A DNA stretch of 64,000 nucleotides from Halothiobacillus sp. Lineage in GTDB: Bacteria > Pseudomonadota > Gammaproteobacteria > JAAZVP01. Both the position numbers and the translations under genes were made by a program. Location: positions 1-64,000 of the forward strand of contig JAAZVP010000004.1 of NCBI GenBank assembly GCA_018623495.1, given 5' to 3'. Of this stretch, positions 14,717 through 23,905 are shown piece by piece. The notes under the pieces are model-generated. The model did not search any database, was not told where the DNA came from, and saw only the letters and a program-made list of their open reading frames with translations. Numbering within the stretch: position 1 is the first letter of the stretch; the number at the start of each line of letters is the position of its first letter.

Positions 14717-16891
14717 GTGGCGGTGACAGACGCACGATCCCGAAAACGCCTGCAGGCCCTGACCCGCGAGCTGGAGGCGGTCGTCCTCCGCGACCTGGGT
14801 GGGCGCCTGGAGGCGATGTTCGCGCATGCCGACGACTGGCTCTTCCGGCACGCCGAGGGAGTGGACGACCCGGACCGCCAGCGCCTCTACTTCGACACCA
14901 TGCGGGCCCTGCGGCTGGACCGGGGGCGCATCATGGAGGCCTTCTCCCGGCAGCTGGGTGCGGCGTTTCGCGCCGACAAGGATCCGGATGCCCTCGCGGG
15001 CATGGCGCTGCAGGCCGATGAACTCCAGCTGGCCGACAGCCGCGAGCTGGAAGAGAACATCGCCCTGTCGGACCTGGTCAGCCGGGCGACCTACCGGCAG
15101 TCGGCCGGACTCGACGTGTTGCGCCGGCGCTTCGGCTGGCTGGCAGAACAGGGCGTGACCGGCGCCTCCGCCGACGCGCTCGCGCCGCGGGCCGTCGCGT
15201 TCGCCTTCCAGGAGGCCCTCCGGCCCCAGGAGCTGGAACGGGATCTGCGGCTGGTCGTCTACCGGCTCTTCGACCGCGAGCTGCTCGCCGGGCTCGGGGA
15301 GCTGCACGCGCAGATCGACCGGCGATTGCAGGCCGCCGGCGTGCTGGCCGATGTGCCCGCCGCCCCCGGGGCGGGGGTCGACGCCCGTGACGCCGCCCGG
15401 GCGCGCCGCGGGGAGGACCGCGAGCCGGGGATCCCCGAATGGGACCGGGCCGCCTTCGTCGCCATCCTCCGGGAAGTCCAGGGGAGTACCCAGGCCGTGG
15501 CCGTGACCGGCCTGCCGAGCGCCCAGCGGGCCACCGCGGAGCTCCTCCAGCGCCTCGCGCTCTTGCAGGGGGCCACCGAGCGCCCGCGTCGTGCCCGCGA
15601 GGAGCACGTCCGGATCGTGCACTCGGTCAACACGCTCTTCTCCCGCCTCTATCTCGACCCGGACCTGCCCGGGGTCGCCTGCGAGGCGATCGCGCTGGTG
15701 CAGATCCCGGTGATGTGCGCCGCGCTCGAGGAACCGGTTCTGCTCGAGGACCCGGCCCATCCGGTCCGGCGGCTGCTGCAGGCGATGGTCGAGCAGGGGC
15801 GCGAGCTCGACAATCCCGGGGCATCGGTGCGGCTGTGGGACGTGGCCGAGCGGGTGGCCGAGGCCGAGGACGTGGTGGCGACCAGTGCCCGGGCACTCGC
15901 CGAGCTGCAGGGCGAGGCGGGCGCCGACGAGCCGGGTATCCAGGGCCAGGAAGCGGCCCGCGAGCGGGCCCGGCGCTACGTGATCAACGAAATGCGGGGC
16001 CGCCTGCGCGGCCGCGTGGTGCCCGAGGAGGCCCGCAGCTTCCTGCTGCAGGGGTGGGGGCCCCGGCTGATGGAGATCGTCCGGCGCGCCGGGCCGGTCT
16101 CGGAGGACTGGCAACGGGCCATCGACCTGCTCGAGCGGTTGGTGGACTGCCTGCAGCCGGAGAGCGGCCCCGCGGGTTGCGGTGGCGAACTGCATGCCGC
16201 GCTGCGCATGGGCCTCGAGCGGGCGGGGTTCTCCCCGGAGCGGATCAACGCCCTGGCCGGACCGCTGGAGGACCGGCTGGCGGCGCAGCCCGCGCGATAT
16301 TCCGGCCCGGCGGGCCCGGCCGGCGGGGTGCGGGTCCCCGAGCCCGACGAGGCCCTGCGCGTGCCCCCGCGCGAGCGGCGCCGCGGGATCATCGACCCCG
16401 AGCCCATCGAGATCCGTTTTCCCGAACCCCCGGCGCCGGCGCGCGAGCCCGAACCGGTCAAGGGCCCGGCAGCCGGGCAGGACGACGGCGAGGTGTCCGC
16501 GGCTCCTGCCGAGGCGCGCCACCACCCCGGGCAAGACGTCGCGGGGTCGCGGGCCGACGGGGACGCGCCCGTCGCGGGGCGCGCCGGTCCGCCGCTGTCG
16601 GCCGACCAGTGGGACTTTCTCGAGGCGGTGTTTCGCCGGGGCGAGTGGTTCGAGGTCCACATGGGCGAGGGCCGCGCGGTACGCCGGCTCAAGGCCCTCG
16701 GCCTCGATCGTGGTCGGGCGCGCGCGATCTTCGCCGACCGGACGATGGTGGCCGTGCTGGAGAAGGAGGCGGCGGGTTTCCTCCGGGACCTTCTGGCCGG
16801 GCGCTCGCGGCCCATCTATGCCGACGGCGAGTATCGGCGTCGCCTCGAGGCCCTGCCGGCCGATCGGGGCGAGTCCGGCGAGGAGGGGTGA
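14717..16891 (+). CDS. DUF1631 family protein (paralogue 1)
   Basis: ADDWLFRHAEG...[16 protein letters not shown] and C-terminal [22 protein letters not shown]. Confidence 0.75.
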   Translation: MAVTDARSRKRLQALTRELEAVVLRDLGGRLEAMFAHADDWLFRHAEGVDDPDRQRLYFDTMRALRLDRGRIMEAFSRQLGAAFRADKDPDALAGMALQADELQLADSRELEENIALSDLVSRATYRQSAGLDVLRRRFGWLAEQGVTGASADALAPRAVAFAFQEALRPQELERDLRLVVYRLFDRELLAGLGELHAQIDRRLQAAGVLADVPAAPGAGVDARDAARARRGEDREPGIPEWDRAAFVAILREVQGSTQAVAVTGLPSAQRATAELLQRLALLQGATERPRRAREEHVRIVHSVNTLFSRLYLDPDLPGVACEAIALVQIPVMCAALEEPVLLEDPAHPVRRLLQAMVEQGRELDNPGASVRLWDVAERVAEAEDVVATSARALAELQGEAGADEPGIQGQEAARERARRYVINEMRGRLRGRVVPEEARSFLLQGWGPRLMEIVRRAGPVSEDWQRAIDLLERLVDCLQPESGPAGCGGELHAALRMGLERAGFSPERINALAGPLEDRLAAQPARYSGPAGPAGGVRVPEPDEALRVPPRERRRGIIDPEPIEIRFPEPPAPAREPEPVKGPAAGQDDGEVSAAPAEARHHPGQDVAGSRADGDAPVAGRAGPPLSADQWDFLEAVFRRGEWFEVHMGEGRAVRRLKALGLDRGRARAIFADRTMVAVLEKEAAGFLRDLLAGRSRPIYADGEYRRRLEALPADRGESGEEG

Positions 16892-17033
16892 TTGCACCCG
16901 CGGCGGCCGGCAGCGACACTAAGGGACCTTTGCACGAATCGTGCAGCATTCGGGTGCCCCCCGGGAGCGGCAACCGGTTCGTTCGACGGTTTCCGGACTG
17001 CGTAAACGCCACTGCGACGAGGCAGCGACGACG

Positions 17034-19619
17034 GTGACAGACAGCCCATCCACGGAGCAGATGAAGACCCTTGCCCGCGAGGTCGAGCGCCGCGGCAGCG
17101 AACGGCTCGACGAGCTGATCGGCGGCATGTTCGAGAATGCCGACGATTGGCTCTTCGCGATGGCGGAAAAGGCCGAGAGCAACCAGCAGCAGAACCTCTA
17201 CTTCGACACCATGCGGGCGCTGCGGCTCGATCGCGACCGCATCGCCGATGCCTTCGACCGGGCGCTCCACGCCAGCTTCTGGAAAGGGCGCGACAGTGGC
17301 GGTCTCGGCTCCATGGAGCTCGACGTCGAGGACCTGCAGCTGGTGGACCAGGACGAGCTCGAGGAAAACGTCGCGGTGACCAACATGGTCACCAAGGCCG
17401 GCCACCTCTACAAGGAGCCCGCCGCGCAGCTCGAGACCCGCTTCGAATGGATGAACGAGCGGGGCCTGGAGTCGCTCTCCCCGGGCGCTCTGAGCCCGCG
17501 CGCGGTCGCCGAGGCCTTCCAGAAGGCCATGCGGCCCGTGGACCTCGACCTCGAACTCCGCCTGATCGTCTACAAGCTCTTCGACCAGCACGTGATCTCC
17601 GAGCTGGAACCGATCTACGTCGAGGCCAATCGCTACCTCGTCGACGCCGGGATCCTCCCCCAGATGCGCGTCGCCGGACACGTGCCGGGTGGCGGTGGAC
17701 CGGCGGCCGCCGCCGGTGGCGGCGAGGCCACCGATGCCGGGGTGGACGAGCCTGCCGCGGAGGCGGCCCCGGTCTGGGGTCGCGACGAGCTCATCGGCGT
17801 GCTGCGCGAGCTCCAGGGCAGCACCCGCGCCACCGCCTCCACCGGCGTGGGCAGCGCTCGCGAGGCCACGGCCGACCTGCTCGCCCGGCTTGCCGGGGTC
17901 CGGGGCCGGGCCGGGGAGCCGGGGCGCGTTCGCGACCGCGAAGAGCGCATCATCGACTCGGTCAACGGGATGTTCTCCGACATCCTCACCGACCCCCACC
18001 TGGCGGACTTCGTCAAGACCGCCATCGCCCGGATCCAGATCCCGGTGGTGCGGGTCGCCCTCGAGGACCCGTCCTTCCTGCGGGATCGGGACCACCCCGC
18101 ACGGCAGCTGATCCGCGAGATGGCGCGCATGGGGGCCGAACTGCACGGCCGAGACGCCCCCGAGTACGCGCGGATGCAGGACGTCGCCGAAATGGTGGTG
18201 GCCGAGTTCGCCGACGACCCGACGCTGTTCTCCGAGGCCCTGGCCGAGCTGCGTGGCGAGTTCGCCGACGAGGTCGAGGAAGAGCGCTTCCTCGAGGAAG
18301 AGCGCGAGGAGATGCGCCTGCGCCGGCGGGCCATCCAGGAGAAGGCCAAGCGTTTCGTGATCCGCGAGATGCGCCGCCATATCCGCGACAAGGTGATCCC
18401 CCGGGAGCTGCGCATCCTGCTGCTCGACGGCTGGGGCCCGCTGATGACGGTCACCTATATCCGCGATGGCGAGGCCTCCGAGGCCTGGGAGCGGGGTGTC
18501 GCCCTGCTGGATCGCCTGGTGGCCTGCCTGCAGCCGCCCGAGGCCGGCCGGGGGCTCCCCGAGGATTGCGACGACGATCTCGTCGACCGCGTGCGGCGGG
18601 CCCTGGCGGACGTGGGTTTTTCCAGCGAGCGAGTGGACGAGCTGGCGGGGCCGGTGGAAGGCCTGCTGGCCGAGCAGCGCGCGCGGCTGGATCGGGGCGA
18701 GTTCGTCGAGGCCGAGGTGGTCGACGGCGAGCCGCTGGAGGAACTGCCCGCGCCCGGCCAGGGGGCACCGGAGCCCGGCACTGCCGAGGGCGAGGCCGAG
18801 CCCCGGCGGGCCCTGGCCCACGCCCCGGAAACGGCCGGGGAGGCGCAAGCCTCGGTGCCCGAACCCGAACCCGAACCCGAACCCGAAGCCGAAGCCGAAG
18901 CCGAAGCCGAAGCCGAACCCGAAGCCGAACCCGAAGCCGAACCCGAAGCCGAACCCGAAGCCGAAGCCGAAGCCGAACCGGAGCCGGAGCCTGAGCCCGA
19001 GGCAGGGCCGGAGCCCGAGGCAGGGCCGGAGCCGGGGCCAGAGCCGGAGCCGGGGCCAGAGCCGGAGCCCGAGGCAGGGTCGGAGCCCGGGGCAGGGCCG
19101 GAGCCCGAGGCCGAGCCAGCGCCCGAACCCGGATCCGGGACCGGGGCAGTGCCCGAGCCGGAGGCAGGGCCCGAACCCGAACCGGAGGCGGAAGCCGAGC
19201 CCGAGGCCGGGCCGGAGTCCCCGTCCGGGGCCGAGACCGGGTTCCCGGAGGTCGAAGCGGCCCCGGGCGGGGCCGCGACGGAGGAGCAGGAACCCGCCGA
19301 GACGGCCGCTTCGGCTCCAGCCGCTGCAGCGGCTTCGCGTCGCTCGCTGTCGGCCGAGGAACTGGCGTTTCTCGGCGAGATCTTCCACCGGGGCGAGTGG
19401 TTCGAGGTGCACATGGGCGAGGGTCGGGCCGTGCGTCGCCTCAAGGCCCTCGCCATCGATCGCGAGCGCAGCATGCTCGCCTTTGCCGACCGCAAGATGG
19501 TCAAGGAGCTGGAAAAGGACGCCCGAGGCTTCCTCCAGGACCTGGTCGCCGGGCGCTCCCAGCCGATCTATGCCGACCGCGACTACGAGCGCCGCCTGCA
19601 GTCCTTTCGCAGCGACTGA
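17034..19619 (+). CDS. DUF1631 family protein (paralogue 2) with a long Pro/Glu/Ala repeat; start GTG 17034 or ATG 16941
   Basis: Same N- and C-terminal blocks as the preceding gene. Confidence 0.75.
18861..19215 (+). repeat. Hexanucleotide-type (GAACCC/GAAGCC, then GAGCCS) low-complexity repeat encoding [12 protein letters not shown]...
   Basis: Direct reading of lines 18841-19220. Confidence 0.9.
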
Positions 19620-19690: not shown

Positions 19691-20689
19691 TCAGTCCCCG
19701 GCTGGCTGGAGCATGCCCTCGACCAGCGGCAGGCCGAGGACGTGCAGCGCGCCCAGCGGCGTGGTCAGGGCGCGGGCGTCCAGGGAGATCACCTCGCGTT
19801 CGGGGAAGGCGTCGGCGAGGAGCCGTCGGGCCGGTTCGTCGGCGGGATCCGCGAACGCCGGGACGATGACCCGTTCGTTGGTCACCAGGAACTGGGTGTA
19901 GCTGGCCGGCAGGGGCGAGCCGTCGGCCGCGGCCACCGGCCGCTCGGGCCGGGGCAGGGCCAGACGCTGGAAAGGCCGGTCGTCGGGATCGCGCAGCGCG
20001 GCGATCTCCGTGGCCAGCGCCGGGTCATCCACGTGGGCGATGCACTGGCGGCCGACGAAGCGCGCCAGCAGGTCGACCCGCCCGCCGCTGGCATCGCCGG
20101 ACGGCCCGTCGGCTTCCAGCCAGAGCACGTGGCGATGGCGGAAGAAGCTGGTGAGCATGGCCTCCATCGGCCGCGGCGTGCCGATGCGCTCGGGAATCGA
20201 GCCGCGATGCATCAGCAGGCTGTCGTCGCCGTTGGTCTCCACGGCCGCCGGCGAGAGCTCGAAGTTGAGCCGGCTGATGCGGATATCGGGGCGCAGCCGG
20301 CCGCAGCCGTGGAGCTGCTGGCTGAAGTGACGCTCCAGCGGGCTCCACGGGCCGAGCGCCCCCGCCCGTGACTGGAAGGCCAGCAGGTGGGGCTGGTCGC
20401 CCATCAGCACCGTCTGTGGGCCGAACAGGCGCATCAGGCTCGAGCCGACGGGCAGCTCCAGCCATTCCACGTCGGCGGTGGCGCCCAGGGCCCTCTCGGC
20501 ATCCGCGCGCCGTTCGTGGTCGCCGCAGACCAGGAGGACGGGCTGGTCGGCCGCGACCGTCCGGATCAGCTCCGCCATGCTTCGGCGGGCGGCGTCGGTG
20601 TCCTCGAAGCCGGTGCCCGGCCAGACGAAAAGCAGGGCGTCCTGCCGCGCCCAGGTGGCGGGCAGGTGCCCGAGCGAGCGTTGTTTCAT
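19691..20689 (-). CDS. Agmatine deiminase/peptidylarginine deiminase-family homologue, probably catalytically inactive
   Basis: Family-like blocks LPATWARQDALLFVWP, VETNGDDSLL, RVDLLARF, PASYTQFLVTNERVIVPAFADPAD, GALHVLGLPL. Confidence 0.7.
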   Translation of the reverse strand: MKQRSLGHLPATWARQDALLFVWPGTGFEDTDAARRSMAELIRTVAADQPVLLVCGDHERRADAERALGATADVEWLELPVGSSLMRLFGPQTVLMGDQPHLLAFQSRAGALGPWSPLERHFSQQLHGCGRLRPDIRISRLNFELSPAAVETNGDDSLLMHRGSIPERIGTPRPMEAMLTSFFRHRHVLWLEADGPSGDASGGRVDLLARFVGRQCIAHVDDPALATEIAALRDPDDRPFQRLALPRPERPVAAADGSPLPASYTQFLVTNERVIVPAFADPADEPARRLLADAFPEREVISLDARALTTPLGALHVLGLPLVEGMLQPAGD

Positions 20690-20699
20690 GCCTCGGGAA

Positions 20700-21032
20700 T
20701 CAGGGGTCGGACTTGACGGGGTGGTGGCGTACCGCGTGGATGACGCTCCGGTTCTCGAAGTGGACGGTGAAGTCCTCGTAGACCCAGCGCGTGATCGGCG
20801 GGCGGATGGCCGAGTAGCCTCCGACGGCGGGCAGGCGCTCCTGCGGTTCGCCGAATTCCGCCCGGACCGCCTCCATGCTCATGCCCCGGCCGGGCAGGGG
20901 GCTCTCGGGCGTGGATTCGCTCACCAGCGGGCGCTTGTCCGGCATTTCCAGGGTCTCGGCTGCCGCGGGTCCGGCAAGCAGCAGCCAGGAGAGGGCCGCC
21001 GCGAGCGTCAGGGCATGGTCGATTCGGGTCAT
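20700..21032 (-). CDS. Small exported protein of unknown function
   Basis: Signal peptide MTRIDHALTLAAALSWLLLAGPAAA then MSMEAVRAEFGEPQERLPAVGGYSAIRPPITRWVYEDFTVHFE. Confidence 0.65.
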   Translation of the reverse strand: MTRIDHALTLAAALSWLLLAGPAAAETLEMPDKRPLVSESTPESPLPGRGMSMEAVRAEFGEPQERLPAVGGYSAIRPPITRWVYEDFTVHFENRSVIHAVRHHPVKSDP

Positions 21033-21122
21033 GACAGTTCCTTTGATGCGGTACGATGCTCTGCCCACCAAGACTATATCATTCACCCGGCATTGCCACC
21101 GGCTGCCGGTCCCGGATTGGCC

Positions 21123-21830
21123 ATGCACTACCATCCGCCCCTGATCCCGGGTCGCCTGCTGCGTCGCTACAAGCGCTTTCTCGCCGACGTGGCGCTCGCC
21201 GACGGCCGCGAGGTGACCGCCCACTGCGCCAACACCGGGGCCATGACCGGGCTGGCCGAGCCGGGGATGCGCGTCTGGCTGCACGACAGTGGCAACCCGA
21301 AGCGCAAGCACCCGCTGAGCTGGGAGCTGGTCGAGCCGCGTCCCGGCGTGCTGGCCCACGTCAACACCAGCCGCAGCAACGCCCTGGCCGCCGAGGCCCT
21401 GGAGAACGGGCGCATCCCCGAGCTGGCCGGCTACCCGGTGATGCGCCGCGAGGTGCGCACGGGTGCATCGGGCAGCCGGCTGGATTTTCTGCTCGCGGGC
21501 CGGGGCAGGGCGGACTGCTACCTCGAGGTCAAGCACCTCACCCTGCAGACCGGGGCGGGCCACGGCGCGTTCCCGGACGCGGTCACCCGGCGGGGTCGGC
21601 GCCACCTGGAGGAGCTCGCCGGGCGGGTCGCCGGGGGCCAGCGGGCGGTCCTGCTCTTCTGCGTGGCCCGCACGGACGTGGAGTCGGTCGGCCCGGCGCA
21701 CGCGATCGATCCCGATTACGCCCGGGCGTTCGACGACGCCTGGGCCGCCGGCGTCGAGGTGCTGGCCCGGCGCCTGGAGATCGGGAAAAATCGGGTTTTC
21801 CTGTTACGGCCGGTGCCCGTAACGGGTTAG
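21123..21830 (+). CDS. sfsA: SfsA family protein (sugar fermentation stimulation protein)
   Basis: RYKRFLADVALADGREVTAHCANTGAMTGL; YLEVKHLTL; FPDAVTRRGRRHLEEL. Confidence 0.95.
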   Translation: MHYHPPLIPGRLLRRYKRFLADVALADGREVTAHCANTGAMTGLAEPGMRVWLHDSGNPKRKHPLSWELVEPRPGVLAHVNTSRSNALAAEALENGRIPELAGYPVMRREVRTGASGSRLDFLLAGRGRADCYLEVKHLTLQTGAGHGAFPDAVTRRGRRHLEELAGRVAGGQRAVLLFCVARTDVESVGPAHAIDPDYARAFDDAWAAGVEVLARRLEIGKNRVFLLRPVPVTG

Positions 21831-21933: not shown

Positions 21934-23181
21934 ATGATCCGACCCTTCGAGCTATTCGTCGGCCTGCGCTACACGCGTGCCAAGCGGCGCAACCACTTCA
22001 TATCGTTCATCTCGGCGACGTCCATGCTGGGCATTACCGTGGGCGTGATGGCCCTGATCACGGTGATCTCGGTGATGAACGGCTTCGAGAAGGAATTGCG
22101 CGAGCGCATCCTCGGCATGGCCTCCCACGTGGTGGTTTCGGCCGGCAACGAGCGCCTCGAGGACTGGCTGGACGTCAGCCGCCGCGTGAATGGCCACGAG
22201 GCAGTGGAGGCCTCCGCCCCCTACGTCCAGGCCGAGGCCATGCTCGCCGCCCAGCCGCGGGTGAGCGGGGCGGTGGTGAGGGGGGTGCTGCCCACCCTGG
22301 AAGCCGGCGTCACCGACGTCGCCGACAACATGGTGGTCGGGCAGATGGACGACCTCCATGCCGGGGGCTACGGCATCGTCCTGGGGCGGGAGCTGGCCGC
22401 CCAGCTCGGGGTGACCCTGGGCGACCCGCTGATGTTGATCACCTCCAACGTCAGCGTCACCCCCATCGGTGCGTTGCTGCGCGAGCGGCGCTTCACCGTG
22501 GTGGGCATCTTCGAGGTGGGGATGTACGAGTACGATCGCGGCACCGCCTTCATCCACATGAGCGATGCCCAGAAGCTCTTCCGCATGGACGACGCGGTGA
22601 CCGGCGTGCGCCTGCGCCTGGACGAACTCTTCTCGGCCCCACGGGTGGCGCGCGAGCTGGGTTCCGAGCTCTCCGCCGAGCACTGGCTGCGCGACTGGAC
22701 CCAGCGCCACGCCAATTTCTTCCGCGCGGTGAAGACCGAGCGCACGGTGATGTTCGTGATCCTGGCGCTGATCGTTGCCGTGGCGGCCTTCAACATCGTC
22801 TCCACCCTGGTGATGGTGGTCACCGACAAGCAGTCCGACATCGCCATCCTGCGCACGCTGGGGGCCTCGCCACGATCGGTGATGGCGATCTTCATGATCC
22901 AGGGCACGCTCATCGGCGTGGTGGGCACGGTCCTGGGGTCGATCGCGGGGGTGACGCTGGCGCTCAACGTGGAGACGCTGGTGCCGGCGCTGGAGCAGCT
23001 GTTGGGCGTGCAGTTCCTCTCGCCGGACGTCTACTACATCTCCGAGCTGCCCTCCGAGCTGCACTGGGGCGACGTGGGCAGGATCGCGCTGCTGTCCTTC
23101 GGCCTTTCGCTGGTGGCCACCCTCTATCCCTCCTGGCGCGCGGCCCGGACCGAACCGGTGGAGGCGTTGCGCTATGAATGA
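21934..23181 (+). CDS. lolC: Lipoprotein-releasing ABC transporter permease (LolC/LolE/LolF)
   Basis: [38 protein letters not shown]; FtsX-type C-terminal domain; followed by lolD. Confidence 0.92.
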
Positions 23182-23905
23182 CACCTATCTCGGCGGGCCG
23201 GTGGTGGAGTGCCGTGCGCTGACCCGCTCGTTCACCGACGCGGGCCACCGGGTCACGGTGCTGCGGGGCGTGAACCTGGCCGTGGCACGCGGCGAGCGCG
23301 TGGCCATCGTGGGCACCTCGGGGGCCGGCAAGAGCAGCCTGCTGCACCTGATGGGCGGGCTCGACACGCCCACCAGCGGGCAGGTGCGGGTGGCCGGGCA
23401 GGATATCAGCCGCCTGTCGGGCGGCGAGCGGGGCCGGCTGCGCAACCGCAGCCTCGGCTTCGTTTACCAGTTCCACCACCTGCTGCCCGAGTTCAGCGTG
23501 GTGGAGAACGTCGCCATGCCCCTGCTGGTCCGCCGCGAGGGGGTCCACCGGGCCCGCCAGAAGGCCACCACGCTGCTCGAGCGGGTGGGGCTGACCTCGC
23601 GCCTGGATCACAAGCCCGGCGAGATCTCCGGCGGCGAGCGCCAGCGGGTGGCCATTGCCCGGGCCCTGGTGAACGACCCCCTGTGCGTGCTCGCCGACGA
23701 GCCCACCGGCAACCTCGACCCGGCCACCGCCGATTCGGTCTACCAGCTGATGATGCGGCTCAACCGCGACCTCGGGACCAGTATCGTCACCGTCACCCAC
23801 GACATGGACCTGGCGCGGCGCATGGACCGGGTACTGCGGATGAGCGGGGGCTACCTGGAGGAACTCAGCCCCGACGACGTTCGCGCCGGGAGCGCAGCTG
23901 GCTGA
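23174..23905 (+). CDS. lolD: Lipoprotein-releasing ABC transporter ATPase LolD
   Basis: Walker [19 protein letters not shown]; signature [25 protein letters not shown]. Confidence 0.95.

Follow-up and report, generated by a model that had tools for sequence, protein, structure and literature searches.

The window analysed here is a 64,000-nucleotide stretch of a Halothiobacillus sp. contig, and on its minus strand, at positions 19691-20689, it carries an uninterrupted open reading frame whose ATG is at 20689 and whose stop is at 19691; it encodes 332 amino acids with no internal stops. The source genome is a 2.46 Mb draft of 110 contigs with a completeness of 98.97%. The gene and its surroundings are as follows.

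16941..19619, plus strand: DUF1631 gene, convergent, where aguB would be expected
19691..20689, minus strand: PF04371 (agmatine-deiminase family) gene, 332 aa, catalytic residues gone (open reading frame, Pfam and alignment)
20700..21032, minus strand: 110-aa protein whose start resembles a signal peptide; immediately precedes the pseudo-aguA in the same direction (open reading frame; 10-bp gap, GAGG before ATG)
21108..21830, plus strand: presumably an sfsA-like gene, named by recognition and not by a Pfam run; divergent neighbour, start approximate, adjoins aguA in several relatives too
21934..23905, plus strand: lolC/E-like permease and lolD-like ATPase genes, a flank common to many aguA loci

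Searched against Pfam-A, the 332-aa protein matches PF04371 (PAD_porph, Porphyromonas-type deiminase) at 5e-39 with 134.9 bits (cut-off 25) over profile positions 2-315 of 321, a full-length match that makes it a member of the family by descent. The initial annotation, made from the letters alone, had described an intact, full-length deiminase-family frame and proposed a profile alignment as a check, and both the frame and the alignment bear it out. A phmmer search of PDB sequences matched agmatine deiminases and putative peptidyl-arginine deiminases. The score against TIGR03380, the NCBIfam AguA equivalog, is below the cut-off (70.6 against 381.8 bits); since intact relatives also fall under it (L052, 173.5; L066, 154.2), this score does not discriminate.

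An AlphaFold2 model was run on a five-row alignment and is hence of moderate confidence (pLDDT 64.9, pTM 0.72). Its best Foldseek matches are the agmatine deiminases 1xkn (E = 9.7e-21, TM 0.71), 1zbr, 2cmu and 6b10, with TM of about 0.7, followed by PPAD and DDAH. At the level that such a model can show, the pentein alpha/beta-propeller fold appears to be retained; its weak stretches are residues 96-145 and 311-332, so that the EGG neighbourhood and the Cys-to-Val site are both affected, and the state of the pocket is unreadable from it.

Catalytic and pocket residues

In Medicago agmatine iminohydrolase (MtAIH), the catalytic triad is Cys366-Asp226-His224, residue 94 is also at the guanidine, Asp220 and Asp89 are at the terminal amine, and Trp91 and Trp125 line the channel (PMC6447857). 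We mapped these residues to codons of the window gene by motif, the equivalence of Trp125 and codon 110 being the least certain, and compared the protein with 147 AguA-like relatives, all of them complete and sampled within its own class. The positions concerned, all on the minus strand and all read from the alignment, are listed with the source of the residue's role where one applies.

20441..20443, minus: codon 83, first Asp of NDxWxRD (MtAIH Asp89) to Ser (TCG); role PMC6447857, motif mapping
20435..20437, minus: codon 85, channel Trp (MtAIH Trp91) to Leu; role PMC6447857, motif mapping
20426..20428, minus: codon 88, guanidine-binding Asp (MtAIH residue 94) to Leu, three nucleotide changes; PMC6447857
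20360..20362, minus: codon 110, FNxWGG Trp (probably MtAIH Trp125) to Gly; PMC6447857
20246..20254, minus: codons 146-148, Glu-Gly-Gly (EGG motif) to Ser-Pro-Ala
20090..20092, minus: codon 200, Asp of GDDTDGH (MtAIH Asp220, amine contact) to Ala; PMC6447857
20078..20080, minus: codon 204, general-acid His (MtAIH His224) to Arg (CGG); PMC6447857
20072..20074, minus: codon 206, Asp of H-x-D (MtAIH Asp226), sole catalytic residue retained
19892..19894, minus: codon 266, invariant Asn (YANF) to Gln
19739..19741, minus: codon 317, nucleophilic Cys (MtAIH Cys366) to Val (GTC); role PMC6447857

The protein reads GSSLMRLFGP for NDxWxRDxGP, ELSPAAVETNG for LEGGxIExDG, GRVDLLARF for GHIDxLARF and GALHVLGLPL for GSLHCxTMQL. 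These four altered motifs had been read in the initial annotation, and the alignment with relatives confirms them with one refinement: in the HVD motif the His is indeed replaced, but the Asp of H-x-D (D206) is retained. Where the relatives have D, D, E, H, D and C at the core positions, the window protein has S, L, S, R, D and V, and both channel Trp are lost as well. D83, D88, E146, H204, D206 and C317 are all intact in every one of the 147 relatives, and the only other departures among the PF04371 sequences compared are the truncated L029 and the divergent L030, which retains H-x-D and Cys. L030 (G015), which has a signal-peptide-like start, and L033 (G014) are divergent PF04371 proteins with H-x-D and Cys motifs, in a subfamily separate from AguA. 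In the AguA of the nearest relative (L052, G096), GDSTHRH replaces GDDTDGH and the core catalytic residues are all retained.

We also looked for catalytic residues that had merely been shifted, which the initial annotation had named as a way in which it could be wrong, and found none. Conserved in-frame residues flank each loss (R87/G90/P91, L145, D206/R210 and G313/H316), and no deiminase motif occurs in either of the remaining minus-strand frames, which also disposes of compensated frameshifts. The Cys-His-Asp triad and acidic guanidine clamp of a functional AguA are thus missing, with S83, L88, S146, R204 and V317 in their places and only D206 kept. Catalysis appears to have been lost on an intact deiminase fold, a conclusion as well supported as sequence permits, and we infer that the window protein would have no deiminase activity.

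Gene order, ancestry and the arginine-to-putrescine route

The usual gene order in relatives is LolD-LolC-(SfsA), then a small secreted protein, aguA and aguB (for example L074, L075, L077, L081 and L083), and DUF2062 is also kept at L083 and L074. By this order the window gene is the positional orthologue of aguA, from which aguB has been lost, with the convergent DUF1631 gene there instead. The 110-aa protein gave no match in Pfam and NCBIfam searches; about half of the loci examined in relatives have a homologue of it immediately before aguA, and it is an uncharacterised conserved neighbour of agmatine deiminase genes. On the other side, two DUF1631 genes stand in tandem at 14717-19619 (plus strand), the second with a long Pro-Glu-Ala repeat stretch (about 18900-19250).

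The tree joins the window gene to the AguAs from family f97 (IQ-TREE 99/92; FastTree 88, 148 rows), whose copies are intact and followed by aguB; the window gene forms the longest end branch, so its precise position is uncertain. The family and order of the source genome are represented in the sample by that genome alone, and searches for close orthologues returned only distant homologues in genome contigs and one distant homologue in viral contigs. An agmatine-deiminase homologue on an IMG/VR contig classed as viral (L084, 3300046703_000336) may be host DNA.

That no N-carbamoylputrescine amidase gene is adjacent had already been noted, and at profile threshold this extends to the whole genome. 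Genome-wide profile searches found no AguB over the cut-off (best 83 bits against 410), no SpeA over the cut-off (best 51 against 624), and no OKR-type (fold-I) decarboxylase, agmatinase/arginase or SpeD over threshold, and the co-occurrence with aguB and an arginine decarboxylase that marks a functional AguA is therefore not seen. Candidates for the missing steps were rejected one after another: L064, the 83-bit AguB candidate, follows a YhdP-like gene and is regarded as an ordinary Nit-type amidase, L065 (as SpeA) reads as LysA, and L187 (as ornithine decarboxylase) is TIGR03099. The two PF02784 proteins of the genome are one LysA-like protein and one exosortase-associated decarboxylase, TIGR03099. 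A second, active AguA elsewhere was likewise dismissed, given that 19691-20689 is the only PF04371 gene found. On the basis of these profile searches, and in a draft genome, which can hide a gene, the arginine-to-putrescine route is taken to be absent; neither this nor the positional orthology with aguA had been recognised in the initial annotation.

Constraint, rival explanations and a possible role

Neutral mutation was simulated at mutational GC of 0.45-0.92, starting from the family consensus encoded with the neighbouring genes' codon usage and ending once the number of altered conserved residues equalled that of the window protein; indels, which would lower survival further, were ignored. 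The window gene has GC1/2/3 of 0.774/0.506/0.922 and a codon choice like that of its neighbours. A difference between GC3 and GC2 of at least the observed 0.416 arose in 0 of 1,800 neutral runs (mutational GC 0.72-0.92), and none of 1,200 (mutational GC 0.45-0.72) combined a GC3 of 0.922 with a stop-free frame. Stops arose often across the simulated GC range. The simulated probability of no stop was 0.06-0.12 at a mutational GC of 0.72 and up to 0.43 at 0.92; stops are rare in GC-rich DNA, so the open frame alone is weak evidence. Conserved columns are kept at 57%, the lowest among all sequences compared, which would suit a partly relaxed gene as well. The losses fall preferentially on the active site, for which 1 of 8 literature-defined columns is kept against 37 of 57 other conserved columns (Fisher p = 0.007), a bias that loses significance at the 98% conservation cut, the strictest (p = 0.12). 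Most of the divergence accrued while the gene was under coding constraint, and a very recent loss of constraint is possible. Elsewhere in the class, a PF04371 match with two in-frame stops (L031, G049:C4:397256-398143) may show an ordinary decaying copy.

That the gene is maintained by selection and is not decaying is supported indirectly, by the neutral-decay simulations and the active-site bias. The initial annotation had favoured a retained role over decay, and this survives in part: codon-position composition, codon choice, the lack of stops and the preferential loss of active-site columns speak for it, the intact orthologues against it. Orthologues that keep the catalytic residues had been named as a sign of local decay; all others in the class sample do keep them, and the change is confined to this lineage.

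The gene could accordingly be a relic that lost its function along with the pathway and is drifting, by luck so far without a stop or frameshift. Such decay fits the catalytic residues kept in all other orthologues, the vanished putrescine pathway and an open frame that is weak evidence by itself where stops are rare, as well as the 43% of conserved columns altered on the longest tree branch. We nevertheless regard it as unlikely, given that the gene has the codon-position contrast and codon choice expected of a working one, that no neutral run reproduced the contrast, that active-site columns are preferentially changed, and that the indels left out of the simulations would make survival rarer still. 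A pentein rebuilt for another reaction without the Cys-His-acid machinery would account for many changes being radical and clustered in the pocket, and penteins can switch chemistry, as in NnhA, which hydrolyses 2-nitroimidazole on this fold (PMC11659421). However, NnhA retained its Cys, His and Glu, and mutation of Cys357 or His260 abolished its activity (PMC11659421), whereas nucleophile, general acid and clamp are all absent from the window protein and no neighbouring gene points to a pathway; we hold a new enzyme to be distinctly improbable.

Misassembly, contamination, compensated frameshifts or sequencing errors might also disguise an intact aguA, and the genome is, after all, a 110-contig draft. 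Yet conserved in-frame residues flank all losses, composition and codon use match the neighbours, and the neighbouring genes are those of aguA in relatives. Most core losses also require two to three nucleotide changes each, so base-calling errors are no explanation. An artefact is largely refuted and scarcely credible.

We conclude that the window gene is best read as a constrained, non-catalytic AguA orthologue, with a probability of roughly two in three. The fuller account, for which we see even odds, is that of an orphan pseudoenzyme: a metabolic enzyme present in a single copy and inherited vertically would, once its pathway was lost, have been exapted where it stood to serve as a non-catalytic pentein, with neither a duplication nor an active partner. 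On our best reading aguA was inherited vertically in this bacterium, and loss of the rest of the arginine-agmatine-putrescine route from the lineage would have freed the protein from catalysis. The pentein body, a five-bladed alpha/beta-propeller, would have been retained together with the start of the protein and the position of its gene downstream of the small secreted-protein gene, while nucleophile, general acid, acidic guanidine clamp and aromatic substrate channel were given up. Its present role would most likely be in binding or scaffolding, as a stand-alone, non-catalytic protein whose pocket is closed and in which R204, the former His, may lie against the remaining acidic D206 and fill the place of the substrate guanidinium; this filled-pocket detail is tentative and, in our view, somewhat doubtful. 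Prozyme-like regulation of an active AguA paralogue was rejected, since the genome has no other PF04371 gene and the protein thus cannot regulate one.

The interest of the locus lies chiefly in an unduplicated orthologue that outlived its pathway. If true, it would be a clean case of exaptation without duplication, in which a single-copy orthologue lost its active site in place under coding constraint, and it would show that the agmatine-deiminase body can have its own use. An automated pipeline would name the product an agmatine deiminase family protein, and a polyamine step absent from the organism could thereby be attributed to it in error.

Compared with AguA itself (PF04371; C. jejuni 6b10, H. 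pylori 3hvm, Medicago 6nib), the window protein matches the profile over its full length, is encoded in the neighbourhood seen in class relatives and has kept the fold, the H-x-D Asp and many structural residues, but it lacks the Cys, the His, both Asp of NDxWxRD, the EGG Glu, the amine-contact Asp and both channel Trp, and its genome lacks aguB and speA at threshold. Pseudoenzymes and non-catalytic penteins are already known; an orphan pseudoenzyme without an active partner is unusual. Among understood pseudoenzymes, most go back to a duplication and have a living sister enzyme as their target. Prozyme and other catalytically dead paralogues of polyamine metabolism (trypanosomatid AdoMetDC and deoxyhypusine synthase; PMC5201418, PMC3663545) are likewise dead members of polyamine-pathway families that are apparently kept, but they are paralogues that activate a living partner, whereas the window copy is the only copy and a positional orthologue. 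We found no agmatine-deiminase or pentein pseudoenzyme in the literature within reach of our search, outside which most subscription papers lay. The role of eIF6 is non-catalytic, showing that a pentein fold can serve without catalysis. eIF6 belongs to the same pentein/GME superfamily (PMC11659421), but it is an ancient, separate family that gives only a weak fold match to the window model (1g61, E = 0.039). NnhA (2-nitroimidazole hydrolase, GME superfamily) resembles the window protein as a pentein with a remodelled substrate pocket and a new function, and differs from it in having retained Cys-His-Glu catalysis (PMC11659421).
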